From: a bacterium | GTDB taxonomy: Bacteria; Acidobacteriota; Thermoanaerobaculia; Multivoradales; JAHEKO01 | DNA: 44,282 bases | Direction: 5' to 3' | Assembly (NCBI GenBank): GCA_024224155.1 | Contig: JAAENP010000312.1 | Location: 1-44,282 of the forward strand | Shown here: in pieces, positions 1 through 11,458 of the stretch | How the letters are laid out: every line of letters begins with the position of its first letter | How positions within the stretch are numbered: position 1 is the first letter of the stretch | Program-made: the position numbers and the translations under genes | The notes under the pieces: generated by a model | Seen by the model: the letters and a program-made list of their open reading frames with translations, nothing else | Told to the model about the DNA's origin: nothing | The model's database searches: none

Positions 1-602
1 ACGACGGAAGGTATTTCATGGTGGCGGCGAACATGCGTGACCAGATCGTGGTGGTCGATCTCAAGACGAAGGAGATGGTCACCAAGTTCAAGACCGGCAT
101 CAAGCCCCACCCCGGCCGCGGTGCCAACTGGCAGGATCCCGAGTATGGCTGGGTGAACGCCACCACCCATCTCGGGGAAGGCAAGATGGCGGTCTATGGA
201 GCCGATCCCGAGGGAAGCCCCGAGCACGCCTGGAAGGTCGTCCGGGAGATCGAGCTACCGGCCAGTGGCGGCCTCTTCCTCAAGACCCATCCCGAGTCGG
301 ATTGGGTCTGGTTCGACTCACCGCTCGCGGCCGACGAGGAGATGACCCGGCAAATCTGCGCCTACTCCAAGTCCAAGGGCGAAATCGAGAAGTGCTGGCA
401 GCCGACCGACCGGGGTCGCACGGTCCACTTCGAGTACAACCGCCAGGGCACCGAGGTCTGGGTCTCCGGCTGGGATCGCCGCGGTCAGATCATCATTTAC
501 GACGACGACACTCTCGAAGAGATTGCGCGCCTGGATGAGGACTGGATGGTGACGCCTACAGGCAAGTTCAATGTCCACAATACGGCGCACGACATCTACT
601 GA
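1..602 (+). CDS. nirS: Cytochrome cd1 nitrite reductase, C-terminal part (5' truncated by window)
   Basis: The reading frame is already open at base 3, so only the last ~200 residues are in the window. They match the end of the eight-bladed d1-heme propeller of NirS, the periplasmic enzyme reducing nitrite to NO in denitrification. Visible family landmarks are PHPGRGAN, the ATTHLG histidine of the active-site pocket, DPEGSPEHAWKVV, KTHPES, and the C-terminal TPTGKFNVHNTAHDIY, which is almost the canonical NirS tail. The c-heme domain would lie upstream of the window. The gene ends at a strong terminator and is separated from the nos operon by about 3.7 kb. d1-heme biosynthesis relatives (NirF, NirN) share the propeller, but the PHPGRGAN block and this C-terminus favour NirS itself. 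The ATG at 18 is internal, not the start. Confidence 0.9.
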   Translation, partial: DGRYFMVAANMRDQIVVVDLKTKEMVTKFKTGIKPHPGRGANWQDPEYGWVNATTHLGEGKMAVYGADPEGSPEHAWKVVREIELPASGGLFLKTHPESDWVWFDSPLAADEEMTRQICAYSKSKGEIEKCWQPTDRGRTVHFEYNRQGTEVWVSGWDRRGQIIIYDDDTLEEIARLDEDWMVTPTGKFNVHNTAHDIY

Positions 603-610
603 GTGATGGG

Positions 611-643
611 GCCCGGTCCGAAAGGACCGGGCTCCTCTTCTTC
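611..643 (+). terminator. Rho-independent-type terminator after nirS
   Basis: A perfect 9-bp GC-rich stem (GCCCGGTCC / GGACCGGGC) closes a GAAA tetraloop, starting 9 bases after the nirS stop codon and followed by a pyrimidine tract TCCTCTTCTTC. It should end nirS transcription before the accessory stretch. Confidence 0.8.
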
Positions 644-1119
644 GACCGCGGATGAGGTCGTCTCGGCCGTGGGTCTTCGGTCGACGGCGCCTTTCGACAG
701 CGAACCGCACCGGGCTTTGGCGCCTCTTTGCTCGGCGCTGCGAACCACTAACACTCGAGAATCAGCTTCTCAGCGCGCCTCGCGATGCGCCCTCCGACCC
801 GCGGCCATCGACGACCTTGATGATCGGTCCAACTGCGAGAACCACAGACTGCGAGTTTGCGCCGAGCGAAGCGTCGGCGTCGAGGCGAGGATCCATGAAC
901 CGAGCGAAGGCGATCCGAGGTCTTCGCGCTGGATCCCTGGCGGCGGTGCTGTCTGAGCGAGCCATGCGTTTATGGCGGGCGAGTTCACCGCCGCCCGCGC
1001 ACCCTCGAAGAAAAGCTGAATCCCAAGCTGGGCGACCAATATCTGTTTTTCGCGATCGACCACGAAACCAAAGTAGGGAGCGGCTCTGGAACGTGGCCGA
1101 TCTGGTCGGGGACTGCTAG
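644..1119. other. Gene-poor stretch with mobile-element debris
   Basis: About 475 bases after the nirS terminator hold no convincing complete gene. Several open frames exist on both strands, but none has a recognisable protein pattern plus a start with a ribosome binding site. A direct repeat CCGAGCGAAG occurs at 862-871 and 900-909. A short stretch from about 1001 reads like a transposase fragment (listed separately). Confidence 0.5.
1001..1081 (+). pseudogene. Possible transposase DDE-domain fragment
   Basis: In the frame starting at 1001 the translation contains LNPKLGDQYLFFAIDHETKV. This resembles the first-aspartate block of IS1-like transposases (GD.Y.F.AID..TKL). The homology stops right after this block: the expected VGKR-type continuation is missing and no start or flanking inverted repeats are seen. 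If real, it is a decayed remnant, consistent with the accessory character of the nirS-nos gap. The similarity is short, so the call is tentative. Confidence 0.3.
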
Positions 1120-1197
1120 TCAGACTAGCAAGGTGATGAGCAGCAAGGCCATCACGCCAAGAATCACCCACCAGGCGACGTCGGCCTTACTAGGCAT
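1120..1197 (-). CDS. Possible 25-residue single-membrane-span peptide
   Basis: A minus-strand ORF of 26 codons starts at the ATG at 1195-1197 and ends with TGA at 1120-1122. It encodes MPSKADVAWWVILGVMALLL and five more hydrophobic residues, i.e. a short polar N-terminus and one clean transmembrane helix. An AGGA element lies about 8 bases upstream of the ATG. A 7-bp inverted repeat TGCTAGT-cag-ACTAGCA (1114-1130) overlaps the stop codon and could help end or protect the message. Tiny one-helix proteins of this kind are common subunits of respiratory oxidases, but no such function can be assigned here. Chance cannot be ruled out at this size. Confidence 0.35.
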   Translation of the reverse strand: MPSKADVAWWVILGVMALLLITLLV

Positions 1198-1391
1198 GGA
1201 TGAGATCCTAGCACCTGGTCATCTTTCTCAAAAAGTACCACCACCCCTTTCCGTGGTGCACTGGTGGTGCAGTAGAAGGCAACTTCTGACCGCTCTCGGC
1301 AACACCGCTCAACTGTCTAGCGCCGCGCAGGTCACTTCCTTTGCAGTGGTTACCAGTTGACGACAGTTGTGGTCCGTTGGATCCCGCCAAC

Positions 1392-1426
1392 CTTCAAAAC
1401 CGTTGTTCGGCCGAGGATGCTGATCT
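1392..1426 (+). repeat. Degenerate tRNA-Sec-like anticodon/variable-arm sequence
   Basis: CTTCAAAACCGTTG at 1392-1405 has the form of a tRNA-Sec anticodon loop (UCA anticodon) plus the 3' side of its stem. About 30 bases from here align with the better copy at 2702-2768, including GGATGC, with scattered mismatches and one indel. The 5' half of a tRNA does not precede it. It may be a decayed second copy of the selC-like 3' half, in the same orientation, on the other side of the acyltransferase gene. Confidence 0.25.
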
Positions 1427-1474
1427 TCACATCGGCATGGGCCTGATAGTCAGCCCAGGAGAATCGGGCGCCCG

Positions 1475-2605
1475 CTAGTAGGACATGCGGATGACGTACT
1501 GTCCGGCGTGCCTGAAGATGCCTGCGCCGTTTTTGTCCGCGATCAAGGGATAGGCGAAGTTCGGCGCTGTCCCTGCGAAGCGGAGCTTATCCAGCGGCAG
1601 CCTGGAGACATTGGTCACCAACACGCTGGTCTGTGGATCGTAGATCCTCGCCTGATGCAACAGATCCTCTGCATGCTGGCGGTTCAACTGACGCAGAAAA
1701 TCGTTGAAATAAGCAGCTGGGGAATCGGGAAGTGATTGGCGAATCAGCAGCGCCAACGCCTCCCTCGACATAGCAGACATAGCCACATCTGCTTCCACGC
1801 GGTGGAAGATCATCCCATTGCCGAAGAAACGCTTCCCGAGTGACTTGAGGTGCCTTCTCATATCAATCGGCATGATCAGCGCTGACGACTGGTTTCCGGT
1901 GTCTGGCTGATGGGCGAGTATCTCCCTCACCGCAATGGCGCTGAGCAGGTCGTTGGTCGAGACCGGCAGATGATGTTTTGCCCGCAGCGCCGCGACGAAA
2001 TCGCTTACCTCTTTTGCCGAATACTTCCTGAAGACGAAATCGAGCTGCTGTTCGGGCTCTTCTTCGAAAGCCGGATTGTCCGTGAATGGCCGCTCAAAGC
2101 ATGGGCGGGAATGATGCGGCGAGAAGAACCAGCGAAACAGAGGCCCGAGCAGCGGGTAAGCCAGGCGAGGCCCGCAGAACAACGAAAGGCTCGTCAGAAG
2201 ATGGAAGTAGGAGTATCCGTCTCCCACCAGGTGGTTCATCTTCGGGAGCAGAACACTTCCATTGCGGAGATGGATCACGCGCAGATGAAACAGCCGTCGC
2301 GTCTCTGGCGATCGGTAGGCCCGGGAGAGCGCTGTGAACCCTTCACTGGTTTGGGGCACTACGAAAGTTTCATCTACTGTCCGCTCTGAGTAGAACTTGC
2401 TTTCGTCGTAGCGCTCGAAATGGAGCTTGCCGTCGGCGTAGCGACCGAAGGCGGGCCAGAAATGGCGAGCCGCCCGCTTGAGCGCAGCTCTGAGCTGGGC
2501 CCCATCCAACCTGGATTCATAGAAGAAGAGAAATTCGATGGCATAAGCGTTGTGCACGAACAGGGCGTCTATCGGCGAGATCTCGATTGCGTCCACGGGG
2601 TTCAT
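1475..2605 (-). CDS. BAHD/condensation-superfamily acyltransferase-like protein
   Basis: A 376-residue protein with the HxxxDG active-site signature of CoA-dependent acyltransferases with the chloramphenicol-acetyltransferase fold: H125-L-V-G-D129-G130 in the context KMNHLVGDGYS. The overall arrangement (N-terminal half ending with HxxxDG, second half with a PIDMRR-type block and a C-terminal IADKNGAGIFRH segment) recalls BAHD or wax-ester-synthase/condensation proteins. The plant-type DFGWG motif is not seen. It would transfer an acyl group from acyl-CoA or a carrier protein to an unknown alcohol or amine. It is monocistronic, antisense to its neighbours and bordered by tRNA-Sec-like sequences, suggesting acquisition. 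The ATG at 2605 is used; a GAGGA lies somewhat far upstream. Substrate unknown. Confidence 0.65.
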   Translation of the reverse strand: MNPVDAIEISPIDALFVHNAYAIEFLFFYESRLDGAQLRAALKRAARHFWPAFGRYADGKLHFERYDESKFYSERTVDETFVVPQTSEGFTALSRAYRSPETRRLFHLRVIHLRNGSVLLPKMNHLVGDGYSYFHLLTSLSLFCGPRLAYPLLGPLFRWFFSPHHSRPCFERPFTDNPAFEEEPEQQLDFVFRKYSAKEVSDFVAALRAKHHLPVSTNDLLSAIAVREILAHQPDTGNQSSALIMPIDMRRHLKSLGKRFFGNGMIFHRVEADVAMSAMSREALALLIRQSLPDSPAAYFNDFLRQLNRQHAEDLLHQARIYDPQTSVLVTNVSRLPLDKLRFAGTAPNFAYPLIADKNGAGIFRHAGQYVIRMSY

Positions 2606-2701
2606 GGCACGGTTCCATCCTCACTGTACGAGCAATGCCGGCCCCGTTCCAGTCGTCGGGCCGAGCACGAGTGAGACGAGTCGGGGCAGAGTCTGACCAG
2701 A

Positions 2702-2768
2702 CCTCAAAACCGTAGGTCGCGTGGGATGCCACGGGATCGGTGGGGTCGATTCCCGTACGCTTCCGCCA
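2702..2768 (+). pseudogene. 3' half of a tRNA-Sec-like (selC) gene
   Basis: Read on the plus strand, 2702-2768 reproduces the second half of a bacterial tRNA-Sec: a CCTCAAA loop holding TCA (2704-2706), a long variable arm GGTCGCGTGG-GATG-CCACGGGATC (2715-2738, nine pairs around one G-G mismatch), a T arm with loop GTCGATT (2745-2751), and an 8-nt acceptor strand ACGCTTCC followed by discriminator G and CCA. The 13-bp acceptor/T helix layout, G73 and long variable arm are selC-specific. The complementary 5' half (expected GGAAGCGT..., D arm, 5' anticodon stem) is absent: homology stops at the anticodon loop. A break there is typical of attachment sites left by elements integrating into tRNA genes. 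Confidence 0.45.
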
Positions 2769-2853
2769 TTGACTCTCACGGAGTAGGATCGCCGTGGTGT
2801 CCGGCCCTTGCCACGAAGATAGCCCGCCGCGACAGTGGGGCACCGAGACCCCG

Positions 2854-4113
2854 ATGAGTGTTCCCGACTATGACGCCAAGCTCAGGCGAATCGCGGGTCA
2901 GACTCTGCTTCCCAAGCTTGCCACGGCGACTGGTGAATACTTGCGGGATCTGGCCGGCACCTACCGTTTCACCTTCCAGGAGTTGCGAGCCGCAGCCCAG
3001 GCCGCTCGCGATCTCGAGATGTGGAACGAAGAGCCCTTGGAGCGCTGGTGGCCCCGCGCGGAGAACAGAGCTCGGGGAGAGGGGCGCGAGCGCAAGAAGG
3101 CTCTTCTGCGGGACCTGGAGGCGCATCTGGGGGAGTTGGCCAGATGCGAAAAGAGCTATCCTCGGGAGGTTCTCTCCGGCCACCCGCGCCGCCATGTTCA
3201 TCTGGGAGAGAAGGACTCATCGGGCGCCGTTTTCGGTCGCTGCCCCGCCTACTCCGAGCACACGGTCTGCTGCGGCCTGCGCAACATCGATGCCGTGCGC
3301 GGCTGTCCTTTCGGATGCAGCTACTGCACCATCCAGACCTTCTACGGCGACACCGCCGAGCTGGAAACCGATCTCGCGCACAAGCTGGGCGACATCGAGC
3401 TGGATCCCGAGCGCTTTTACCACATCGGCACCGGCCAGGCCTCCGATTCCCTCGTCTGGGGGAACCGGGGCGGCATCCTCGACACCCTGCTGGCCTTTGC
3501 TGCCCGAAACCCGAACGTTGTCCTGGAGCTCAAGACCAAGTCCGACAATGTCGAGGATCTGCTCGCGCGTGAGATCTCACCGAACGTTGTATGCAGTTGG
3601 TCGCTTGCCACCGAGACGATCATCCGCAACGAGGAGCACGGAACAGCGTCTCACGAGAAGCGTCTGCGAGCGGCACGCCGCGTAGCCGAGCACGGCTGCA
3701 CGATCGGCTTCCACTTCCATCCGATGGTGTACTACGAAGGTTGGCGAGGTGAGTATCGCGACATCGCCGATCGGCTGCTGTCGCTGTTTTCGCCGCGGGA
3801 GGTCGCCTTCGTGTCGATGGGATCGATGACTTTCATCCGGCCCGTGGTCACGAAGATCCGAAGGCGGGGCGGCTCGACCAAGGTCCTGCAGATGGAGATG
3901 GTTCAGGACGCCCATGGCAAGCTCACCTACCCGGACGAGGTAAAGACTCGGCTCTTCGGACATCTCTTCGGCGCACTCGAGGACTGGCACGGGCGGGTCC
4001 TGTTCTACCTGTGCATGGAGAACGCCACCATGTGGGAAACCGTCTTCGGAGCGCCGCCTCCGACCAGCGAGAGCTTCGAGCAGCTCTTCGCCCGTCGCTG
4101 TCTCGCTGTCTGA
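2854..4113 (+). CDS. Radical SAM protein of the spore photoproduct lyase-like family
   Basis: From the ATG at 2854 the protein has 419 residues. The radical SAM cluster motif is CPFGCSYC (Cys near residues 151, 155 and 158). Downstream blocks typical of SPL-like proteins are ELKTKSDNVEDLL, SWSLATE, EHGTASHEKRLRAA, GFHFHPMVYYEGW, MGSMTF and FYLCMENATMWETVFG. The ~140 residues before the cluster are longer than in Bacillus SplB and mostly helical. Known SPL reverses the thymine spore photoproduct; homologues in non-sporulating bacteria have no proven substrate, so a DNA-lesion repair role is inference. A GTG at 2794 would add 20 unconserved residues. It stands alone between two tRNA-Sec 3'-end-like sequences. 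Confidence 0.75.
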   Translation: MSVPDYDAKLRRIAGQTLLPKLATATGEYLRDLAGTYRFTFQELRAAAQAARDLEMWNEEPLERWWPRAENRARGEGRERKKALLRDLEAHLGELARCEKSYPREVLSGHPRRHVHLGEKDSSGAVFGRCPAYSEHTVCCGLRNIDAVRGCPFGCSYCTIQTFYGDTAELETDLAHKLGDIELDPERFYHIGTGQASDSLVWGNRGGILDTLLAFAARNPNVVLELKTKSDNVEDLLAREISPNVVCSWSLATETIIRNEEHGTASHEKRLRAARRVAEHGCTIGFHFHPMVYYEGWRGEYRDIADRLLSLFSPREVAFVSMGSMTFIRPVVTKIRRRGGSTKVLQMEMVQDAHGKLTYPDEVKTRLFGHLFGALEDWHGRVLFYLCMENATMWETVFGAPPPTSESFEQLFARRCLAV

Positions 4114-4144
4114 CGGTCGAGTCGGTTGAATGGACCGAGCTGGC

Positions 4145-4181
4145 GGTTGGCGATTCCCTTCCCAGATGCGCTTCCGCCATT
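4145..4181 (+). repeat. Third tRNA-Sec 3'-end-like sequence
   Basis: GGTTGGCGATTCCC (4145-4158) followed 10 bases later by CGCTTCCGCCATT (4169-4181). The latter 13 bases are identical to 2758-2770, covering the acceptor end, G73, CCA and two flanking bases. The match could mark the far boundary of a module carrying the radical SAM gene. The T-arm part is degenerate and has an insertion. Confidence 0.3.
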
Positions 4182-4260
4182 TTGCCTCTAACCGCTTCGT
4201 GGGTGCAGGGGCCTTGGCCCTTCGTCCAGACCACCTATTTGGGTGGCGCATCGAGCGGTG

Positions 4261-4277
4261 AAGCCTGCGAGGCTTTT
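4261..4277 (+). terminator. Weak hairpin terminator before the nos operon
   Basis: AAGCCT-GCG-AGGCTT followed by TT, 150 bases downstream of the radical SAM stop codon. The six-pair stem and short T run make it a weak candidate. Confidence 0.3.
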
Positions 4278-4366
4278 CGATATTAGCTTAGCTTCGCGGC
4301 AGGCGATGGACGGCCAAGGGTCGCTTATTTCCGCCCGAACACTAGCTGGCGGCGAAGAAGTCCAGA

Positions 4367-6298
4367 ATGACCGAGGATCGGACAGAGAGCCACTTTCAGG
4401 CCGAGTTTCGGGATCTGACCTGGTACCGGGAAAACGTGCCCTGTATGCAGGCCTGCCCGGTTCATACCGACTCGGGTCGCTACGTGCAGCATATTGCCAA
4501 CGGCGACGATCTTTCGGCGTTTCTTGTCGCCCGTTCCTCGAATCCGCTGGCTTCGATCTGCGGCCGCATCTGCGCCGCCCCGTGCGAGGACGCCTGCCGC
4601 CGCAATTGGATCGACGGCGCGGTGATGATCCGACCGCTCAAGCGGTTCGTCACCGAGCAGTTCGGCGTCGAATCCTCGTCACCCAACTCTTACCAGGCCT
4701 TGCTCGACGGCGCCGAGGATCCCGGCTGCAGCCGTCTGGGGCATCTTTCCCGGCTGGCGCTGCATCGAGACGTCGGGCAGGGCAGGAAAGTTGCGGTGGT
4801 CGGCTCGGGTCCGGCCGGCCTGGGTTGTGCCCACGATCTGGCGCTTCTCGGATACCGGGTGACGGTGTTCGAGGCACTGGACCAGCCGGGGGGCATGCTT
4901 CGCTACGGCATTCCCGAATACCGGCTGCCACGAGGGGTGATCGAGCGCGAGGTCGCCGCCATCGAGAAGCTCGGGGCTTCGTTTCGCTACGGAACGCCTC
5001 TGACCGAGGAGTTCGGTCTCGAGGCCCTGCGGCGCGACGGCTACGAGGCGGTTTTCCTGTCCGTTGGAGCCTCGCGCGGTCGCGACTTGGACATCCCAGG
5101 TCACGATCTCGACGGTGTGGTCAAGGCGGTCGACTACCTCCTCAACATGAACCGGGGCTACCGCACCGACCTGGGCGAACGGGTCATCGTCATCGGCGGC
5201 GGCTCAGTGGCTCTGGACGCGGCGCGCACGGCGGTGCGCGAAGTCTACGAGCCGATGGAGGAGATCGAGCTCACCGCCGACGCGGCCGCGGGCCAGCCCG
5301 CTCTGGACGTGGCCCGAGGGGCGCTGCGGGCAGGAGCGAAGGAGGTCCACGTCATCTCGCTCGAGTCGATGGAGGAGTTGCCGGCGGCCAAGACGGTTCA
5401 GGGTCGAGACGAGCTCAAAGAGGCGATCGAAGAGGGGATCGAGCTCCATCCCGCCTGGGGACCGAAGCGTTTTCTCGGCGAGGGGCACCTCACCGGCGCC
5501 GAGTTCGTCGCCTGCACTCGTGTCTTCGATGAGGAAGGCCGCTTCAGGCCCGAGTTCGACGAGGCGCAGACGATGCGCCTGGAGGCCGACTCGGTGGTGC
5601 TCGCCATCGGGCAGCAGGCGGATCTCTCCTTTCTCGAAGAGAGCGACGGGGTCGAGCTCACCCGTGGCGGGACGATCAAGATCGACGCGGAAACCCTGGG
5701 GACCACGGCGCCGGGAGTCTTCTCGGGCGGCGACGTCGCCTTCGGTCCACGCATCGCCATTGAGGCCGTGGCCAACGGCAAGCGCGCCGCGCGGTCGATC
5801 CATGAGTACCTCGGCGGAAAGCCGACAAAGACTCTCCTCGACGTCAAGGTGGAGAGGATTCCGCCCGACCGGTACTGGACCTTCGCCGGCTACGAGCACC
5901 GGGATCGCTCTCTGCCACGAACGGTCGAGCTGGGCCGGCGCACGGGAATCACCGAAGTCGAAGAGGTTTTCGACGAGGCGCAGGCCCGAGCGCAGGCCGA
6001 GCGCTGCCTCATCTGCCACGTAGACACGATCTACGACCCACTCAAGTGTGTGCTTTGTGGACGCTGTGCCGATGTCTGTCCCAGCCAGTGTCTGGTGTTC
6101 GCTCCGATCGAGCGGGTGGAGATGCTGGAAGAGCAGAAGACGGCGGCCGTGGAGAACTGCGGCCACGATCCGGAGCAACCACTCACCGTCCTATTGAAGG
6201 ACGACACCGACTGCATCCGCTGCGGCCTGTGCGCGGAGCGCTGTCCCACCGAGGCGATGAACATGGAGAGATTCGAGTTCGCGGAGAGAAGCGCATGA
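4367..6298 (+). CDS. GltD-like FAD/NAD(P) oxidoreductase with N- and C-terminal Fe-S domains
   Basis: A 643-residue protein built like the small subunit of glutamate synthase and other GltD-type diaphorases. Residues 1-100 hold the Fe-S Cys pattern (C26, C30, then CGRIC..PCEDAC at 65-77). An FAD Rossmann motif VVGSGPAGLG lies near 143 and an NAD(P) motif VIGGGSVALDAA near 271. The C-terminus (about 545-640) carries two ferredoxin clusters, CVLCGRCADVC and CIRCGLCAERCP. It is the first gene of the nos operon and overlaps the Rieske gene by four bases. By family, the flavin unit exchanges electrons between NAD(P)H and Fe-S proteins. Inferred role: feeding or regulating electron flow into the Rieske/cytochrome b module. 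It may replace the NosG/NosH ferredoxins of other clade II clusters. Confidence 0.8.
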   Translation: MTEDRTESHFQAEFRDLTWYRENVPCMQACPVHTDSGRYVQHIANGDDLSAFLVARSSNPLASICGRICAAPCEDACRRNWIDGAVMIRPLKRFVTEQFGVESSSPNSYQALLDGAEDPGCSRLGHLSRLALHRDVGQGRKVAVVGSGPAGLGCAHDLALLGYRVTVFEALDQPGGMLRYGIPEYRLPRGVIEREVAAIEKLGASFRYGTPLTEEFGLEALRRDGYEAVFLSVGASRGRDLDIPGHDLDGVVKAVDYLLNMNRGYRTDLGERVIVIGGGSVALDAARTAVREVYEPMEEIELTADAAAGQPALDVARGALRAGAKEVHVISLESMEELPAAKTVQGRDELKEAIEEGIELHPAWGPKRFLGEGHLTGAEFVACTRVFDEEGRFRPEFDEAQTMRLEADSVVLAIGQQADLSFLEESDGVELTRGGTIKIDAETLGTTAPGVFSGGDVAFGPRIAIEAVANGKRAARSIHEYLGGKPTKTLLDVKVERIPPDRYWTFAGYEHRDRSLPRTVELGRRTGITEVEEVFDEAQARAQAERCLICHVDTIYDPLKCVLCGRCADVCPSQCLVFAPIERVEMLEEQKTAAVENCGHDPEQPLTVLLKDDTDCIRCGLCAERCPTEAMNMERFEFAERSA

Positions 6299-6813
6299 GT
6301 GAGGACAAGCTGGAAAGCCCAGAAAGCCGGAGAGGATTCCTGACCAAGTTGACCGGAGGGCTCTTCGGAGCCGGGCTCCTCGGAGGGTCCTGGACTTTTA
6401 TCCGCTCTCTGGTTCCCAACGTCCTCTACGAGCCGCCGCAAAGGTTCAAGATCGGTGACCCTGAGGCGTACACGGCGGGCGTCCATTTCCTCGACAAGCA
6501 TCGTCTGTTCCTGTTCAGGGAAGAGAATTCCTTTCACGCGATCTCGGCCGTCTGCAGTCATCTCGGCTGCACCGTCAAGTTCTCTCCCTTCAAGCAGCTG
6601 CGCGAGATGACGGTGCGCAAGTTGAGCTACCGATCCCGAGGCGAGTTCCGTTGTGCCTGCCATGGGTCCCACTTCCGGGACGAAGGCACCAACTACGCCG
6701 GTCCCGCCCCCCGCCCCCTGAAGTGGCACGAGCTGACGCGGTCACCCGAGGACGGGCAGCTGGTGGTCGATCTGGCAAGAGAAGTCGACCGCGACTTTCG
6801 ACTGGTGGTCTGA
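6295..6813 (+). CDS. Rieske [2Fe-2S] protein of the nos electron-transfer module
   Basis: A 172-residue protein beginning with a Tat-type signal anchor (SRRGFLTK followed by a hydrophobic Gly-rich stretch). The Rieske cluster ligands are visible as CSHLGC and CACHGSHF. The ATG at 6295 overlaps the preceding stop (ATGA). The cytochrome b gene follows with no gap, so the two form a bc-type quinol oxidase core on the periplasmic face. The spacer between the two ligand blocks is unusually long (about 26 residues with basic residues RKLSYRSR), where many Rieske proteins have a dozen or so. Expected job: take electrons from menaquinol via the b subunit and pass them to the cytochrome c encoded two genes on. 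Confidence 0.9.
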   Translation: MSEDKLESPESRRGFLTKLTGGLFGAGLLGGSWTFIRSLVPNVLYEPPQRFKIGDPEAYTAGVHFLDKHRLFLFREENSFHAISAVCSHLGCTVKFSPFKQLREMTVRKLSYRSRGEFRCACHGSHFRDEGTNYAGPAPRPLKWHELTRSPEDGQLVVDLAREVDRDFRLVV

Positions 6814-8310
6814 ATGAGTCTGTTGCCGAAGACAACCCTGCTCGACAAGCTGCTCTGGCCGTGGCGGCCGCTGACCGACCGCGAGGCAGGCGATGCGGTG
6901 GTCTCCAACTTCCTGCTGCACTGGTTTCCGACGCGTGTGACCCTGAAGAGCCTGTCGCTCAAGTACTCGCTCTACCTCGGCACCATCTCCATGGTGTTGT
7001 TCGCCATTCTGACGGTGACCGGGGTGTTCCTGATGTTTCTCTACGTGCCCTCGGTGGAGCGCGCGTATTGGGGAATCAAAGACCTCGACTATGCGGTCAG
7101 CTTCGGTTGGCTGCTGCGCCGGGTGCACCGGATCAGTGCTCATCTGATGGTGGTGGCGGTGTTTCTCCACATGTTCCGCGTTTTCCTGACCGGTTCCTAC
7201 AAGAAGGGCAGCGCCGTCGGATCGCAGCGGCCGTTCAACTGGGTTCTGGGCGTGCTGCTGCTGGCTCTCACGCTCTTTCTCAGTTTCACCGGTTACCTGC
7301 TGCCGTGGGATCAACTGGCCTTTTGGGCGATCACGGTAGGCACCAACATCGCCGCCAGCGTGCCGGTTGTCGGAGAGCAGATTCGTCAGTTCCTGCTCGG
7401 CGGCACCCTGATCGGGCAGAACACCCTGATCCGCTTCTACGTCCTGCACGTTTTCTTTCTGCCGCTGGCCTTGGGTGGGGTGGCGGTCTGGCACATGTGG
7501 CGCATCCGCAAGGACGGCGGCTTGGCAGTGACCGAGCAGCTGCGCGAGAAGAACCGGGAAGCGGAGCCGGAAGAACCGCTCAAGACAAAGACCTGGAGTG
7601 TTCTGGGGATCGCCAGTGGGACATCGGTGACCGTGATGGATCCGGCAACCGTCCATGAATCCGACTCGGTGCCGTCCTCGCCGTTTCTGACCGCGCGTCT
7701 GCTGGGCGTGACAGTCGCGACCTTAATCGTGACGCTGCTCCTGGGCCTCGTGGTGGCGGCACCGCTCGAGCAGGCGGCCAATCCGGAAGTAACTCCCAAC
7801 CCGGCCAAGGCGCCATGGTATTTCCTGGGGCTGCAGGAGCTGGTGAGCTACTCGGCCCTGATGGGGGGGGTGCTCATTCCGGGCATTGTGCTTCTGGGGT
7901 TGGCCTTGATCCCCTTCCTGGATCGGGAACAAAGACTGATCGGATACTGGTTCACCGATGCGGCCGGCAAGAAGTGGGCCCTGATCGGTCTGGCCTGGGG
8001 GCTGGTCTGGACGATCGGCTGCGTCGCTCTCGGCGTCAAGGTGCCGGTGCGGGAGCTCTTTCCGACGATCGAGAGCCAGATCTTCTTCGATCTCGTCAAT
8101 CCGGCGACATTGCTGTTGCTGAGCTTCGTGGCGCTCTATTACATCGCGCTGAAGGCGACCGCATCGACCCGAACCGCGGCGGTCGCCACCTTCTGCGCCT
8201 TCATCGTGGCCTTCCTTCTACTGACCTGGGCCGGAACCGCAATGCGGGGGCCGAACTGGGAGTTTTTCTGGCCGTGGCAGGAGTGGCCCCAACAACCCAT
8301 TCAGTTTTAG
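6814..8310 (+). CDS. Cytochrome b (fused b6/subunit IV type) of a bc-type complex
   Basis: A 498-residue integral membrane protein. The N-terminal half has the heme-binding core: [21 protein letters not shown] and, two helices later, [22 protein letters not shown] supply paired histidines. The C-terminal half resembles subunit IV, with the quinol-site block [12 protein letters not shown] in place of PEWY and further transmembrane helices. A hydrophilic loop (about residues 230-285) joins the halves. The start directly abuts the Rieske stop codon, and the pentaheme cytochrome gene begins two bases after its own stop. It should oxidise menaquinol and pass electrons to the Rieske protein, contributing to proton translocation during N2O respiration. 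High confidence in family; physiological partner inferred from the operon. Confidence 0.9.
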
Positions 8311-8312
8311 TC

Positions 8313-9515
8313 ATGAGCAGAATCCAACGCATCCCCAAACGCGAGCTGATCGTTCTACTCATCATCGGCTTGGCCGGCGTTGCCGCCGTCGCGGCGGTGT
8401 TCGTGCGCGAGGTCACTCCCGAGTGGAAGTACTACCAAGGTGAGTTTGCGAGCATCGTCGAGGAGAACCTGGGCTCGGTCGATCCCTCCCAGGTCCCCCG
8501 CGGGATCCAGCAGATTTGGGTGGAAGATCTCGACCGCGTCGACCGCTGCACGACCTGTCATCAGGGCATGTTCTGGACCGGGCTCGAGGACGTCGAGCAA
8601 CCGTGGGGAACCCACCCGCGACTGGAGCTCTTCCGCTCTCACCCGGTGGAGGAGTACGGCTGTACCGTCTGTCACGGTGGCGAGGGCTATGCGCTGAGCG
8701 CGTACGAGGGGCACGGCTACTCTCGCCACTGGGAGGAGCCGCTCCTGGCACAGCCGATCGCCTCGGAGTACGACCCCGTCAACCCACCGCCTCTGGTGGA
8801 GACCAACTGCAACTACTGTCATCGCTACGAGCGCTCGACGCCGGGGATGGACTACGTCAATCGGGGCAAAGAGGTCGTCCGGACCAAGGGCTGCAAGATC
8901 TGCCACGTGATCAATGGGAGTGGCGGCCGCATGGGTCCCGATCTGACTCACGTCGGCGACAAGCACGCCGAGGAGTTCGATTTCTCGAACCTGGCTACCG
9001 ACCAGTTGACCGTCTTCAACTGGCACTTCAAGCACTTCAAGTCACCGATCACCGTGGTGCCCGAGAGCATCATGCCGGACCTCAATCTCCAGAGCAGAGA
9101 CGCCCTGGCCCTCAGCATGCTGGTGATGAGCTGGCGCGATAACGAGCACCTTCCGCGCAAATACTTCCCCGGCGTCGAGCTCAAGGACGAGCAAACCGCC
9201 GCAGAGATGGAGCGCGAGCGCCGGATGTTGGAAGGCGATGGCGCCTTCTTCGTCGAGCACAGCTGTTTCGTCTGTCACTCGATCGAAGCCTTCGAGATCG
9301 AGTCACCGACCAACAAGGGGCCGGACCTCTCTTGGGCGCCGGACGACGTGCGGACCCGCTTCAGCAAAACGGTCGAGGAGTTCATCTTCGAGCCCACCGG
9401 GACTATGGAGATCATCCTGGGAAGCCAGATCGTTCTGACCGACGAGCAGAAATGGGAGGCGGTCAACAAAATCTCGAAGGCCTACGACATCGTCAAAAAC
9501 CGGGAGCAGGAGTAG
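8313..9515 (+). CDS. Membrane-anchored pentaheme cytochrome c
   Basis: From the ATG at 8313 the protein has 400 residues: an N-terminal uncleaved-looking membrane anchor (ELIVLLIIGLAGVAAVAAVF) and five CxxCH heme-attachment motifs at residues 79-83 (CTTCH), 117-121 (CTVCH), 166-170 (CNYCH), 194-198 (CKICH) and 318-322 (CFVCH). The last heme lies in a separate C-terminal cytochrome-c-like domain with a possible Met ligand region (TGTMEIILG). It takes the place of cytochrome c1 in the Rieske/cytochrome b module and sits immediately before nosZ, so it is the likely electron wire to the CuA centre of NosZ. Longer in-frame reading upstream overlaps cytochrome b and is not coding. Confidence 0.9.
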   Translation: MSRIQRIPKRELIVLLIIGLAGVAAVAAVFVREVTPEWKYYQGEFASIVEENLGSVDPSQVPRGIQQIWVEDLDRVDRCTTCHQGMFWTGLEDVEQPWGTHPRLELFRSHPVEEYGCTVCHGGEGYALSAYEGHGYSRHWEEPLLAQPIASEYDPVNPPPLVETNCNYCHRYERSTPGMDYVNRGKEVVRTKGCKICHVINGSGGRMGPDLTHVGDKHAEEFDFSNLATDQLTVFNWHFKHFKSPITVVPESIMPDLNLQSRDALALSMLVMSWRDNEHLPRKYFPGVELKDEQTAAEMERERRMLEGDGAFFVEHSCFVCHSIEAFEIESPTNKGPDLSWAPDDVRTRFSKTVEEFIFEPTGTMEIILGSQIVLTDEQKWEAVNKISKAYDIVKNREQE

Positions 9516-9565
9516 CTGCTCCATTCGAGGAAAGCAACAGATCATCAATCCATCAAGGAGGGAAG

Positions 9566-11458
9566 ATGAGGAATTCGACAAGAGCAACACTAGTCGTGCT
9601 TGCGGTTGTGGCCCTGCTCGTGGGCGGATGTGGCAAGCAGCCGCCAGGGCGGGGTGCGGCGCGCGGCAACGGAGGCTCGGATGTGACCGCAGCGGCGCTG
9701 GCCACCTATGTGCCGCCCGGCGATCTGGACGAGTACTATCTCTTCTACTCGGGTGGCCACGGTGGGCAGGTTTTCGTGGCGGGAGTCCCCTCGATGCGGC
9801 ATATCGCCACTATTCCCGTGTTCACGCCCTATCCAGGCACCGGGTTCGGCTTCGACGACGAGACCAAGGAGATGCTGGCCGGCTATACCTGGGGTGATTC
9901 GCACCATCCGGGCTTTTCGGAGACCGGTGGCGAATACGACGGTCGCTGGCTGTTCATCAACGACAACGCCAACGGCAGGATGGCCCGTATCAATCTGAAG
10001 GATTTCAAAACCAAGCAGATTCTCAAGATCCCGAATGTTTCCGCCAACCATGGCAGCTCGTTTGTCTCGCCGAACACCGAGTACATCACCATGGCGACCC
10101 GCATGTCGGTTCCGTTTCCGGAGGGAACGTATGCAGACGTGACGGACTACGCTGAAAAGTACAAGGGCGTCGTGGCCGGCATTGAGGTCGACCCCGATTC
10201 GGGGCACCTTACGCTCGGCTGGGAGATCGTGGTGCCGCCGTTCGACTACGACCTGGGTGACGCCGGGAAAGGCCCCAGCGAGGGGTACTTTTTCTGGACC
10301 TGCTACAACTCGGAGCGAGAGTTCATCGAGGGCGGCAAGCTCGAGGTGACCGCATCGCAGCGCGACAAAGACTACATCCTGATGGTCGACTGGCGTGCCG
10401 CCGCCCAGGCCGTGGCCGACGGGCAAGCAGAGACGATCAAGGGCGCTCCGGTGCTCTTCCCGGATAAGACTTCCGACATCGCCTGGTTCCTGCCGCTGGC
10501 GAAGTCTCCGCACGGGGTAGACGTCGCACCGTCGGGGCAGTGGATTGTCGGCGCGGGCAAGCTCTCTCCGACGACAACGGTCTTCAACATCGACAAGATC
10601 AAGAAGGCCATCGAGGACAAGAACTTCGAGGACACCATCGATGGCATTCCGGTTCTGACCTACGACTCGGTCCGTGAGGCAGAGATTCCGGTCGGGCTCG
10701 GTCCGCTACACACGCAATTCGACGGCAGGGGCTATGCCTACACGTCGCTCTTCGTGGAAAGCGCGGTCGCCAAATGGAAGCTGCCGCCCTATGACGACAC
10801 GTCGGATATGAGCCAGTACGTGGTCGACAAGATTCCGGTCTCCTACAACATCGGTCATCTCGTGACTGCCGAAGGGGACTCGATCGAGCCTGACGGCAAC
10901 TATCTGGTGGCTCTCAACAAGCTGTCGAAGGGTCGCCACATCAGCGTCGGTCCATCGATTCCGGAATCGGCGCAGCTAATCGACATCTCCGGCGACAAGA
11001 TGAGGCTCCTCTACGACGCCTTCACCGAGCCGGAGCCGCATTATGCGGTGATGATCAAAGCTGACAAGCTCGACCCGATCGAGGTCTACAAGAAGGATGA
11101 TCCGGCCTGGCCCAAGAACCCGAACGCCATCTGGACGGCCGAGGAAGCGAAGATCGAGCGTCGAGGCAACACCGTCGAAGTATGGATGATGGCGGTGCGC
11201 TCGTTCTTCGCACCCGATGTGATCCGGGTGAAGAAGGGCGACAAGGTCATCATTCACGTGACCAACATCGAGCAGACCCGCGACGAGCTGCATGGTTTCG
11301 CCATCAATGACTACGACATCAATCTGGTCGCCGATCCGGGAGAGACCAAGACCGTGACGTTCACCGCGGACAAGACAGGTGTATTCGCCTTCTACTGCAC
11401 CAACTTCTGTAGCGCTCTGCATCAGGAGATGCAGGGCTACTTCTTGGTTGAGGGATGA
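9566..11458 (+). CDS. nosZ: Clade II nitrous oxide reductase
   Basis: 630 residues from the ATG at 9566, which is preceded by an excellent AAGGAGGGA ribosome binding site. It reduces N2O to N2 in the periplasm. The N-terminus is a Sec/lipoprotein signal (VVALLVGGC) without a twin-arginine motif, as expected for clade II enzymes. Seven candidate CuZ histidines are visible: two in DSHHPGFSE, then SANHGSS, SPHGVDV, GPLHTQFDGRGYAYTS, YNIGHLV and EPHYAV. The C-terminal cupredoxin domain carries the CuA ligands ELHGF, C611, C615, H619 and M622 (CTNFCSALHQEM). No frameshift or missing ligand is seen. A lipid anchor at C21 would tether the enzyme to a membrane, near the membrane-bound cytochromes encoded upstream. 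Confidence 0.97.
   Translation: MRNSTRATLVVLAVVALLVGGCGKQPPGRGAARGNGGSDVTAAALATYVPPGDLDEYYLFYSGGHGGQVFVAGVPSMRHIATIPVFTPYPGTGFGFDDETKEMLAGYTWGDSHHPGFSETGGEYDGRWLFINDNANGRMARINLKDFKTKQILKIPNVSANHGSSFVSPNTEYITMATRMSVPFPEGTYADVTDYAEKYKGVVAGIEVDPDSGHLTLGWEIVVPPFDYDLGDAGKGPSEGYFFWTCYNSEREFIEGGKLEVTASQRDKDYILMVDWRAAAQAVADGQAETIKGAPVLFPDKTSDIAWFLPLAKSPHGVDVAPSGQWIVGAGKLSPTTTVFNIDKIKKAIEDKNFEDTIDGIPVLTYDSVREAEIPVGLGPLHTQFDGRGYAYTSLFVESAVAKWKLPPYDDTSDMSQYVVDKIPVSYNIGHLVTAEGDSIEPDGNYLVALNKLSKGRHISVGPSIPESAQLIDISGDKMRLLYDAFTEPEPHYAVMIKADKLDPIEVYKKDDPAWPKNPNAIWTAEEAKIERRGNTVEVWMMAVRSFFAPDVIRVKKGDKVIIHVTNIEQTRDELHGFAINDYDINLVADPGETKTVTFTADKTGVFAFYCTNFCSALHQEMQGYFLVEG

Follow-up and report, generated by a model that had tools for sequence, protein, structure and literature searches.

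Probable cassette arrays at tRNA-Sec in Thermoanaerobaculia and their likely remnant between nirS and nos genes

How did three truncated pieces of a selenocysteine tRNA gene (selC) come to lie, all in one orientation, around two single genes between nirS and a block of nos genes? This question is raised by the window, by which we mean the whole stretch of 44,282 nucleotides that was analysed (contig C312 of genome G000, a 5.7-Mb assembly of 576 contigs with 3% contamination). A sequence-only reading of this DNA had proposed that the pieces are att remnants of successive insertions at selC. Our data support that proposal, which was right in kind: the genome possesses an intact selC whose 3' half matches the window sites, and at least 12 of 38 selC loci (those of relatives plus its own) have another 3' piece of selC, likewise oriented, downstream of the gene. 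The explanation that we regard as very probable is that non-autonomous integrative cassettes are stacked at tRNA-Sec by a tyrosine integrase acting in trans, and the window in all likelihood contains the worn end of one such cassette array.

Three selC fragments and their neighbours

An intact selC, which the sequence-only reading had suggested seeking in the genome and scanning with a covariance model, lies on the minus strand of a contig other than that of the window (G000:C217:1026-1125), where it scores 70.5 bits with the Rfam tRNA-Sec model and is called tRNA-SeC by ARAGORN. Blastn of this gene and its flank against the window confirmed the three fragments (A, B and C) at the positions first given for them, and features of the locus are listed in Table 1.

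Table 1. Features of the array remnant and its flanks in the window
Feature	Position	Strand	Evidence
nirS, 3' part (cytochrome cd1 nitrite reductase), cut by contig start	18..602	+	Pfam Cytochrom_D1, E 3e-39
Arm-type doublet GTGGTGCACTG GTGGTGCAGTA, period 11 bp	1253..1276	+	0 mismatches to the 27-fold pattern; 139 bp before core
Remaining attP-like arm: CAAC repeats, then GTTG repeats (1349-1379)	1277..1391	+	Alignment of 22 arms
Site A: crossover core (anticodon loop, CTTCAAAACC) and truncated selC 3' half	1392..1422	+	Blastn 27/31 to own selC, E 3e-5
Acyltransferase gene, cargo	1475..2605	-	Pfam Transferase PF02458, E 1.2e-7
Site B: selC 3' half, anticodon loop to GCCA, without conserved arm	2702..2768	+	Blastn 50/66 to own selC, E 6e-7
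Radical SAM gene, spore photoproduct lyase family (SPL), cargo	2794..4113	+	Pfam SPL, E 2.6e-15
Site C: selC 3' end only (GCGCTTCCGCCATT)	4159..4181	+	Blastn 21/24 to own selC with 2 gaps, E 0.05; exact 13-mer at 4169-4181
FAD/Fe-S oxidoreductase, right flank, first gene of nos-side block	4367..6298	+	Pfam; G014 homologue 79%
Nos-side block, further genes: cyt b; nosZ	6814-8310; 9332-11458		Pfam

The description of B as a selC-like 3' half broken at the anticodon loop holds, and its terminal 13-mer CGCTTCCGCCATT does occur twice in the window (2758 and 4169) and 0 times in 100 shuffles, as the anticodon-arm pattern of A occurs once in the window and 0 times in 100 shuffles, both patterns having been chosen post hoc. 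ARAGORN found 0 tRNA genes in the whole window, and an Rfam scan of positions 1-8000 returned no tRNA family at E<=10; by these two scans a complete tRNA-Sec cloverleaf is absent at A, B and C, and none of the three is a tRNA. The sequence-only reading had allowed that both outer matches might be chance. For A this doubt falls away: A is not a chance match, and it is stronger than was first judged, since a conserved arm, described below, makes up the 139 bp in front of it. For C the caution stands, since it is the weakest of the three sites and could by itself be chance, or could instead belong to the short hairpin units found behind selC; C is the probable right edge of the array. We did not see the conserved arm before B, so that B and C both lack it.

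The Pfam matches bear out that the fragments frame an acyltransferase and a radical SAM gene. The acyltransferase gene had no match in any of 39 relatives at E<=1e-10, whereas the SPL gene has homologues of 60-80% identity in 6 of the 39 and two more distant matches at 27%. To the left, nirS is the neighbour of the array and may be either backbone or cargo. To the right, the FAD/Fe-S gene has homologues in G014 (79%) and G010 (78%), where HEAT and cytochrome c genes (named by eye) stand in front of it, and tblastn over the 6.3-6.5 kb read there found no nirS, acyltransferase or SPL gene at this locus. The similarity between the window and G014 starts at 4394 by blastn and can be traced by eye to about 4230, with C just left of that point. 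Both the absence of the acyltransferase from relatives and the different genes at this locus in G014 and G010 favour insertion. The sequence-only reading had suggested looking for the same locus empty in relatives; G001 and G002 gave no match to the FAD/Fe-S gene at E<=1e-60, and an exact empty site is therefore not demonstrable.

A conserved arm and the arrays behind selC

Alignment revealed that about 150 bases before the anticodon loop are conserved across 22 copies in six genomes, in the order of a GTGGTGCACTG/GTGGTGCAGTA doublet (period 11), CAAC repeats, GTTG repeats and core. The attP-like arm in the window measures about 140 bp and ends at A. Within the order, the pattern of the GTTG part matched 22 times and that of the doublet 27 times, all in the same 6 of 72 genomes, with 0 matches for either in the reversed control, and arms of this one type span four genera. 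The 22 arms are followed by 18 selC 3' halves, three tRNA-Lys(TTT) 3' halves and, at G002:C112, a single CTTTTAATCC without a full tRNA end. The tRNA-Lys(TTT)-like halves preceded by this arm family were found in G001, G009 and G011, and at G009:C47 a selC 3' half comes immediately after one of them. The distance from doublet to core is 138-139 in 16 of the 18 selC-type cassette sites, the other two being one cut by the locus end and one without a doublet. In its exact form the arm was recovered in 7 stretches from three assemblies of the genome contig set (a count that possibly omits the window's own record), in 0 viral contigs, and with no match in plasmids and phages. Three doublets have no tRNA fragment in the next 260 bases (G000:C422:15773 (L218), G008:C49:452 and G009:C61:2359) and are perhaps remnants.

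Allowing up to 2 mismatches, we found the selC 3' end in 66 of the 72 genomes, mostly once (control 0), and in multiple copies in G008 (9), the window's genome (6), G001 (5) and G009 (4). The clearest array is that of G008, which possesses seven arm sites on its selC contig spaced 3872, 1422, 2557, 2589, 5717 and 1096 bp apart (1.1-5.7 kb). Its units hold one to few predicted genes each, and none has a Phage_integrase match. Their cargo comprises two Ser/Thr kinases with TPRs, HigB with an HTH partner, a beta-barrel protein, SnoaL, a zinc dehydrogenase and a transposase that we take to be IS3-like, genes inside arrays having been picked as ORFs by rough codon composition. Genes of the array cargo are found in either orientation. 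Behind selC there is one site in G001, which has three more on another contig, and there are two in G009. The arrays of G008, G001 and G009 keep an intact tRNA gene at the left end; the window contig, which starts inside nirS, ends short of selC, and none of the contigs of the window's genome joins array and selC. On the preferred reading, the window's array would be part of such a selC array.

Two further features of selC loci were observed. In genus g11 a second selC 3' end lies 84-155 bp away in 7 of 21 genomes (G034, G053, G054, G055, G057, G061 and G062; e.g. L043), and the arm patterns matched nowhere in these seven. At 10 of 38 loci, among them L048:618-720, L038, L049, L051, L055, L057 and L063, the selC 3' end recurs as an inverted copy no more than 130 nt after CCA (shuffle p<=0.01, 200 shuffles each); such copies also occur in genomes without arm cassettes. 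At L048 the selC end and its trailer fold at -64.2 kcal/mol (z -5.8).

Core-switching junctions and the origin of the units

Two other contigs of the window's genome were informative. Contig C450 (L107; 9,889 bp) contains a unit of 9.6 kb that is bounded by sites on both sides and whose cargo consists of a molybdopterin oxidoreductase, an Fe-S subunit, a nitrate-reductase-delta-like protein and a cytochrome c/ethylbenzene-dehydrogenase-type (EB_dh) subunit, and its right end leads into the acyltransferase unit of the window. When A is compared with this end, 106 of 106 bases are identical to the right of the core, from base 1391, while the left arms agree at 100 of 140 (~71%). Conversely, the starts of C450 and C451 are identical at 163 of 164 bases left of the core and diverge immediately to its right. 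Both switches fall at the core, that is, at the anticodon loop; like the arrays and the conserved arm before A, this lay beyond the view of the sequence-only reading. The switches fit recombination at the core in different cells or different copies, although the junctions come from a metagenome assembly, in which mixed strains or collapsed repeats are possible.

That the fragments are chance matches, or copies of a degenerate tRNA-Sec pseudogene that homologous recombination has spread, is extremely improbable. The shortness of C and the tandem 3' ends of genus g11 would suit such an origin, and for C alone it may hold; the conservation of the arm, the core-exact junctions and the order-wide counts with their zero controls tell against it for A and B.

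The 3' halves were also compared with the selC genes. Outside the window's genome, 14 of 15 sites (14 of the arm type and one of another arm type) carry a 3' half that most resembles the selC of the same genome; the one that departs from this is a site in G001 with a G008-type half (2 versus 12 differences). In the window's genome this is true of 0 of 3 informative sites, B and the left site of C450 (89% alike over 73 nt) being closest to G008 and that of C451 to G001; too little is left of A and its C450 copy to assign them to a selC type. Since none of the three is closest to the genome's own selC, these contigs may represent an imported array or may have been binned with the wrong genome. 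A kinase cassette is shared by G008 and G009 at 94.1% identity over 825 bp, far above the 79.9% over 2,358 bp of rpoB in these genera.

Candidate recombinases and a proposed mechanism

The integrase gene that the sequence-only reading had suggested seeking near either end did not turn up: Phage_integrase (PF00589) had no match on the window contig, nor on C450 and C451 of the same genome, C26 of G008, or C30 and C129 of G001. Among contigs with the 27 doublets, only G002:C112 has a match, a C-terminal fragment of 157 aa that lies about 2.7 kb away from the arm. G009 has no Phage_integrase match anywhere, not even Xer, from which it follows that this MAG has gaps. An integrase accompanied by the cassette doublet (GTGGTGCA, period 11) was not found, with doublets sought in 72 genomes and integrases in the 6 that bear doublets.

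Autonomous elements do occur at the same targets. G002, of the same genus as the window's genome, encodes a tyrosine integrase 133 bp behind selC, which as a query gave 11 matches (itself included) in 8 of 148 genomes of the class; a tRNA (Sec, Ser, Leu, Arg or Lys) lies within 0.5 kb upstream of 9 of the 11, and an exact 8-mer doublet of period 11 upstream of 4. In G002 the doublet TGGCACA is found before the integrase and at the selC attR, on two unjoined contigs. G011:C180 holds a 4.4-kb element at tRNA-Lys with an integrase and an attR arm, and G003 has another arm type, with a CCACACT doublet, at a selC 3' half. From doublet to core the distance is 138 at the G002 selC attR, 137 at the G011 tRNA-Lys attR and 125 in G003. 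Given the similar layout and distances and the other doublets, the cassettes look like non-autonomous members of this selC/tRNA-Lys element family with a doublet of their own. We considered the G002 selC integrase as the direct helper and set it aside on account of its differing doublet, taking it as a relative. At L245 (G002:C163:518) the sequence after a TGGCACA-type selC attR resembles the left end found behind selC, and the next unit has no integrase homologue, a possible helper/cassette pair.

Could each fragment be the attR of a separate selC island that once bore its own integrase, with deletions leaving only cargo and scars? Such decay, which overlaps our preferred reading, is unlikely but deserves weight: B and C are worn, autonomous elements exist at selC (G002) and tRNA-Lys (G011), the other arm type of G003 sits at a selC 3' half, and G002:C112 retains its integrase fragment near the arm. 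On the other hand, 22 well-kept arms of one type, spread over four genera at short spacing, with no Phage_integrase on the arm contigs of 5 of 6 genomes, would be hard to obtain by independent deletion.

An integron, in which IntI acts on attC hairpins, would likewise build tandem small units, including HigB with an HTH partner, and could account for the strong inverted repeat after selC in some loci; the window's genome does encode an integron integrase (L131; G000:C369:272-1342, minus strand; TIGR02249, 446 bits against a cut-off of 265), a competing candidate recombinase by its sequence. We judge this very improbable, as the sites are a tRNA 3' half with directional arms, the cargo lies in both orientations, and this integrase is not on C312, C450 or C451.

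For the preferred reading, of integrase-free cassettes stacked at tRNA-Sec, we propose that a full unit would comprise cargo (one to few genes, in one case an operon), an attP arm of ~140 bp that contains arm-type integrase sites, and the selC 3' half from the anticodon loop. A tyrosine integrase provided in trans would recombine an incoming circle, at its anticodon-loop core, with the core of selC or of an existing array site. Because the incoming unit brings its own 3' half, selC would stay intact, and because the old 3' half is displaced downstream, units would stack; they may still be mobile. More tentatively, and with rather less confidence than we place in the stacking itself, Thermoanaerobaculia might possess a tRNA-based gene-capture platform, in which a shared integrase acting in trans carries single genes, toxin-antitoxin pairs or a whole respiratory operon (the nitrate-reductase-like unit of the window's genome) as integrase-free cassettes into and between the selC arrays of different genera, with the selC variable arm as a donor barcode. 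This arm may record the origin of a cassette and so make traffic between genera traceable.

Comparison with known systems

Our searches of the open-licence PMC literature brought up no report of selC cassette arrays or of such arrays in Thermoanaerobaculia. Integrons add small modules in tandem at a fixed site, by way of attI and attC sites. The selC arrays work in a like manner, but they use a tRNA core with directional arms in place of attI/attC, and their array contigs lack an integron integrase. Cis-mobilizable elements (CIMEs) are mostly relics beside an ICE, whereas the selC arrays consist of many small units with one common arm type; the C450 unit shares with CIMEs two att sites and no recombinase (no PF00589 match). 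CIMEs and tandem accretion, as named in excerpts of PMC3146451, resemble the arrays in having att sites without an integrase of their own and in stacking by site-specific recombination.

As in tRNA-targeting islands, the displaced 3' tDNA fragment lies downstream of the gene and keeps its orientation in the arrays; the integrase gene that such islands carry was not found. The tDNA islands of Islander, according to the portions of PMC4383910 available, likewise regenerate the tRNA gene and displace its 3' fragment, and anticodon-centred sites are a known class there (2083 islands). An Islander tandem requires an integrase in each member (125 tandems with at least two members, 4 with at least three; same portions of PMC4383910), unlike the units of selC arrays, and surveys with this demand would miss such arrays. 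The additive flexible tRNA islands and tycheposons are also anchored at tRNA genes, one additive island being marked by recurring 20-bp tRNA-Lys-end repeats; tycheposons differ in carrying a tyrosine recombinase, and a long arm per unit is not described in the excerpts of PMC10872708 at hand.

In the parts of PMC3146451 that treat them, the Dehalococcoides ssrA islands, like the selC arrays, consist of units placed in tandem after an RNA gene, with repeats of the 3' end of that gene as boundaries and with respiratory cargo; 15 of 31 units have no integration module, and conserved bases surround each repeat. These islands differ in having a tmRNA target, serine recombinases, a T-loop site and a 20-bp repeat (same parts of PMC3146451), as against tRNA-Sec (and tRNA-Lys), an anticodon-loop site, a ~140-bp arm of tyrosine-integrase type and small units. 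By analogy, the ssrA islands, the additive tRNA islands and CIMEs appear to be the closest precedents, and the selC arrays suggest that ordinary tRNA-targeting integrases could give rise to integron-like modular stacking of genes.
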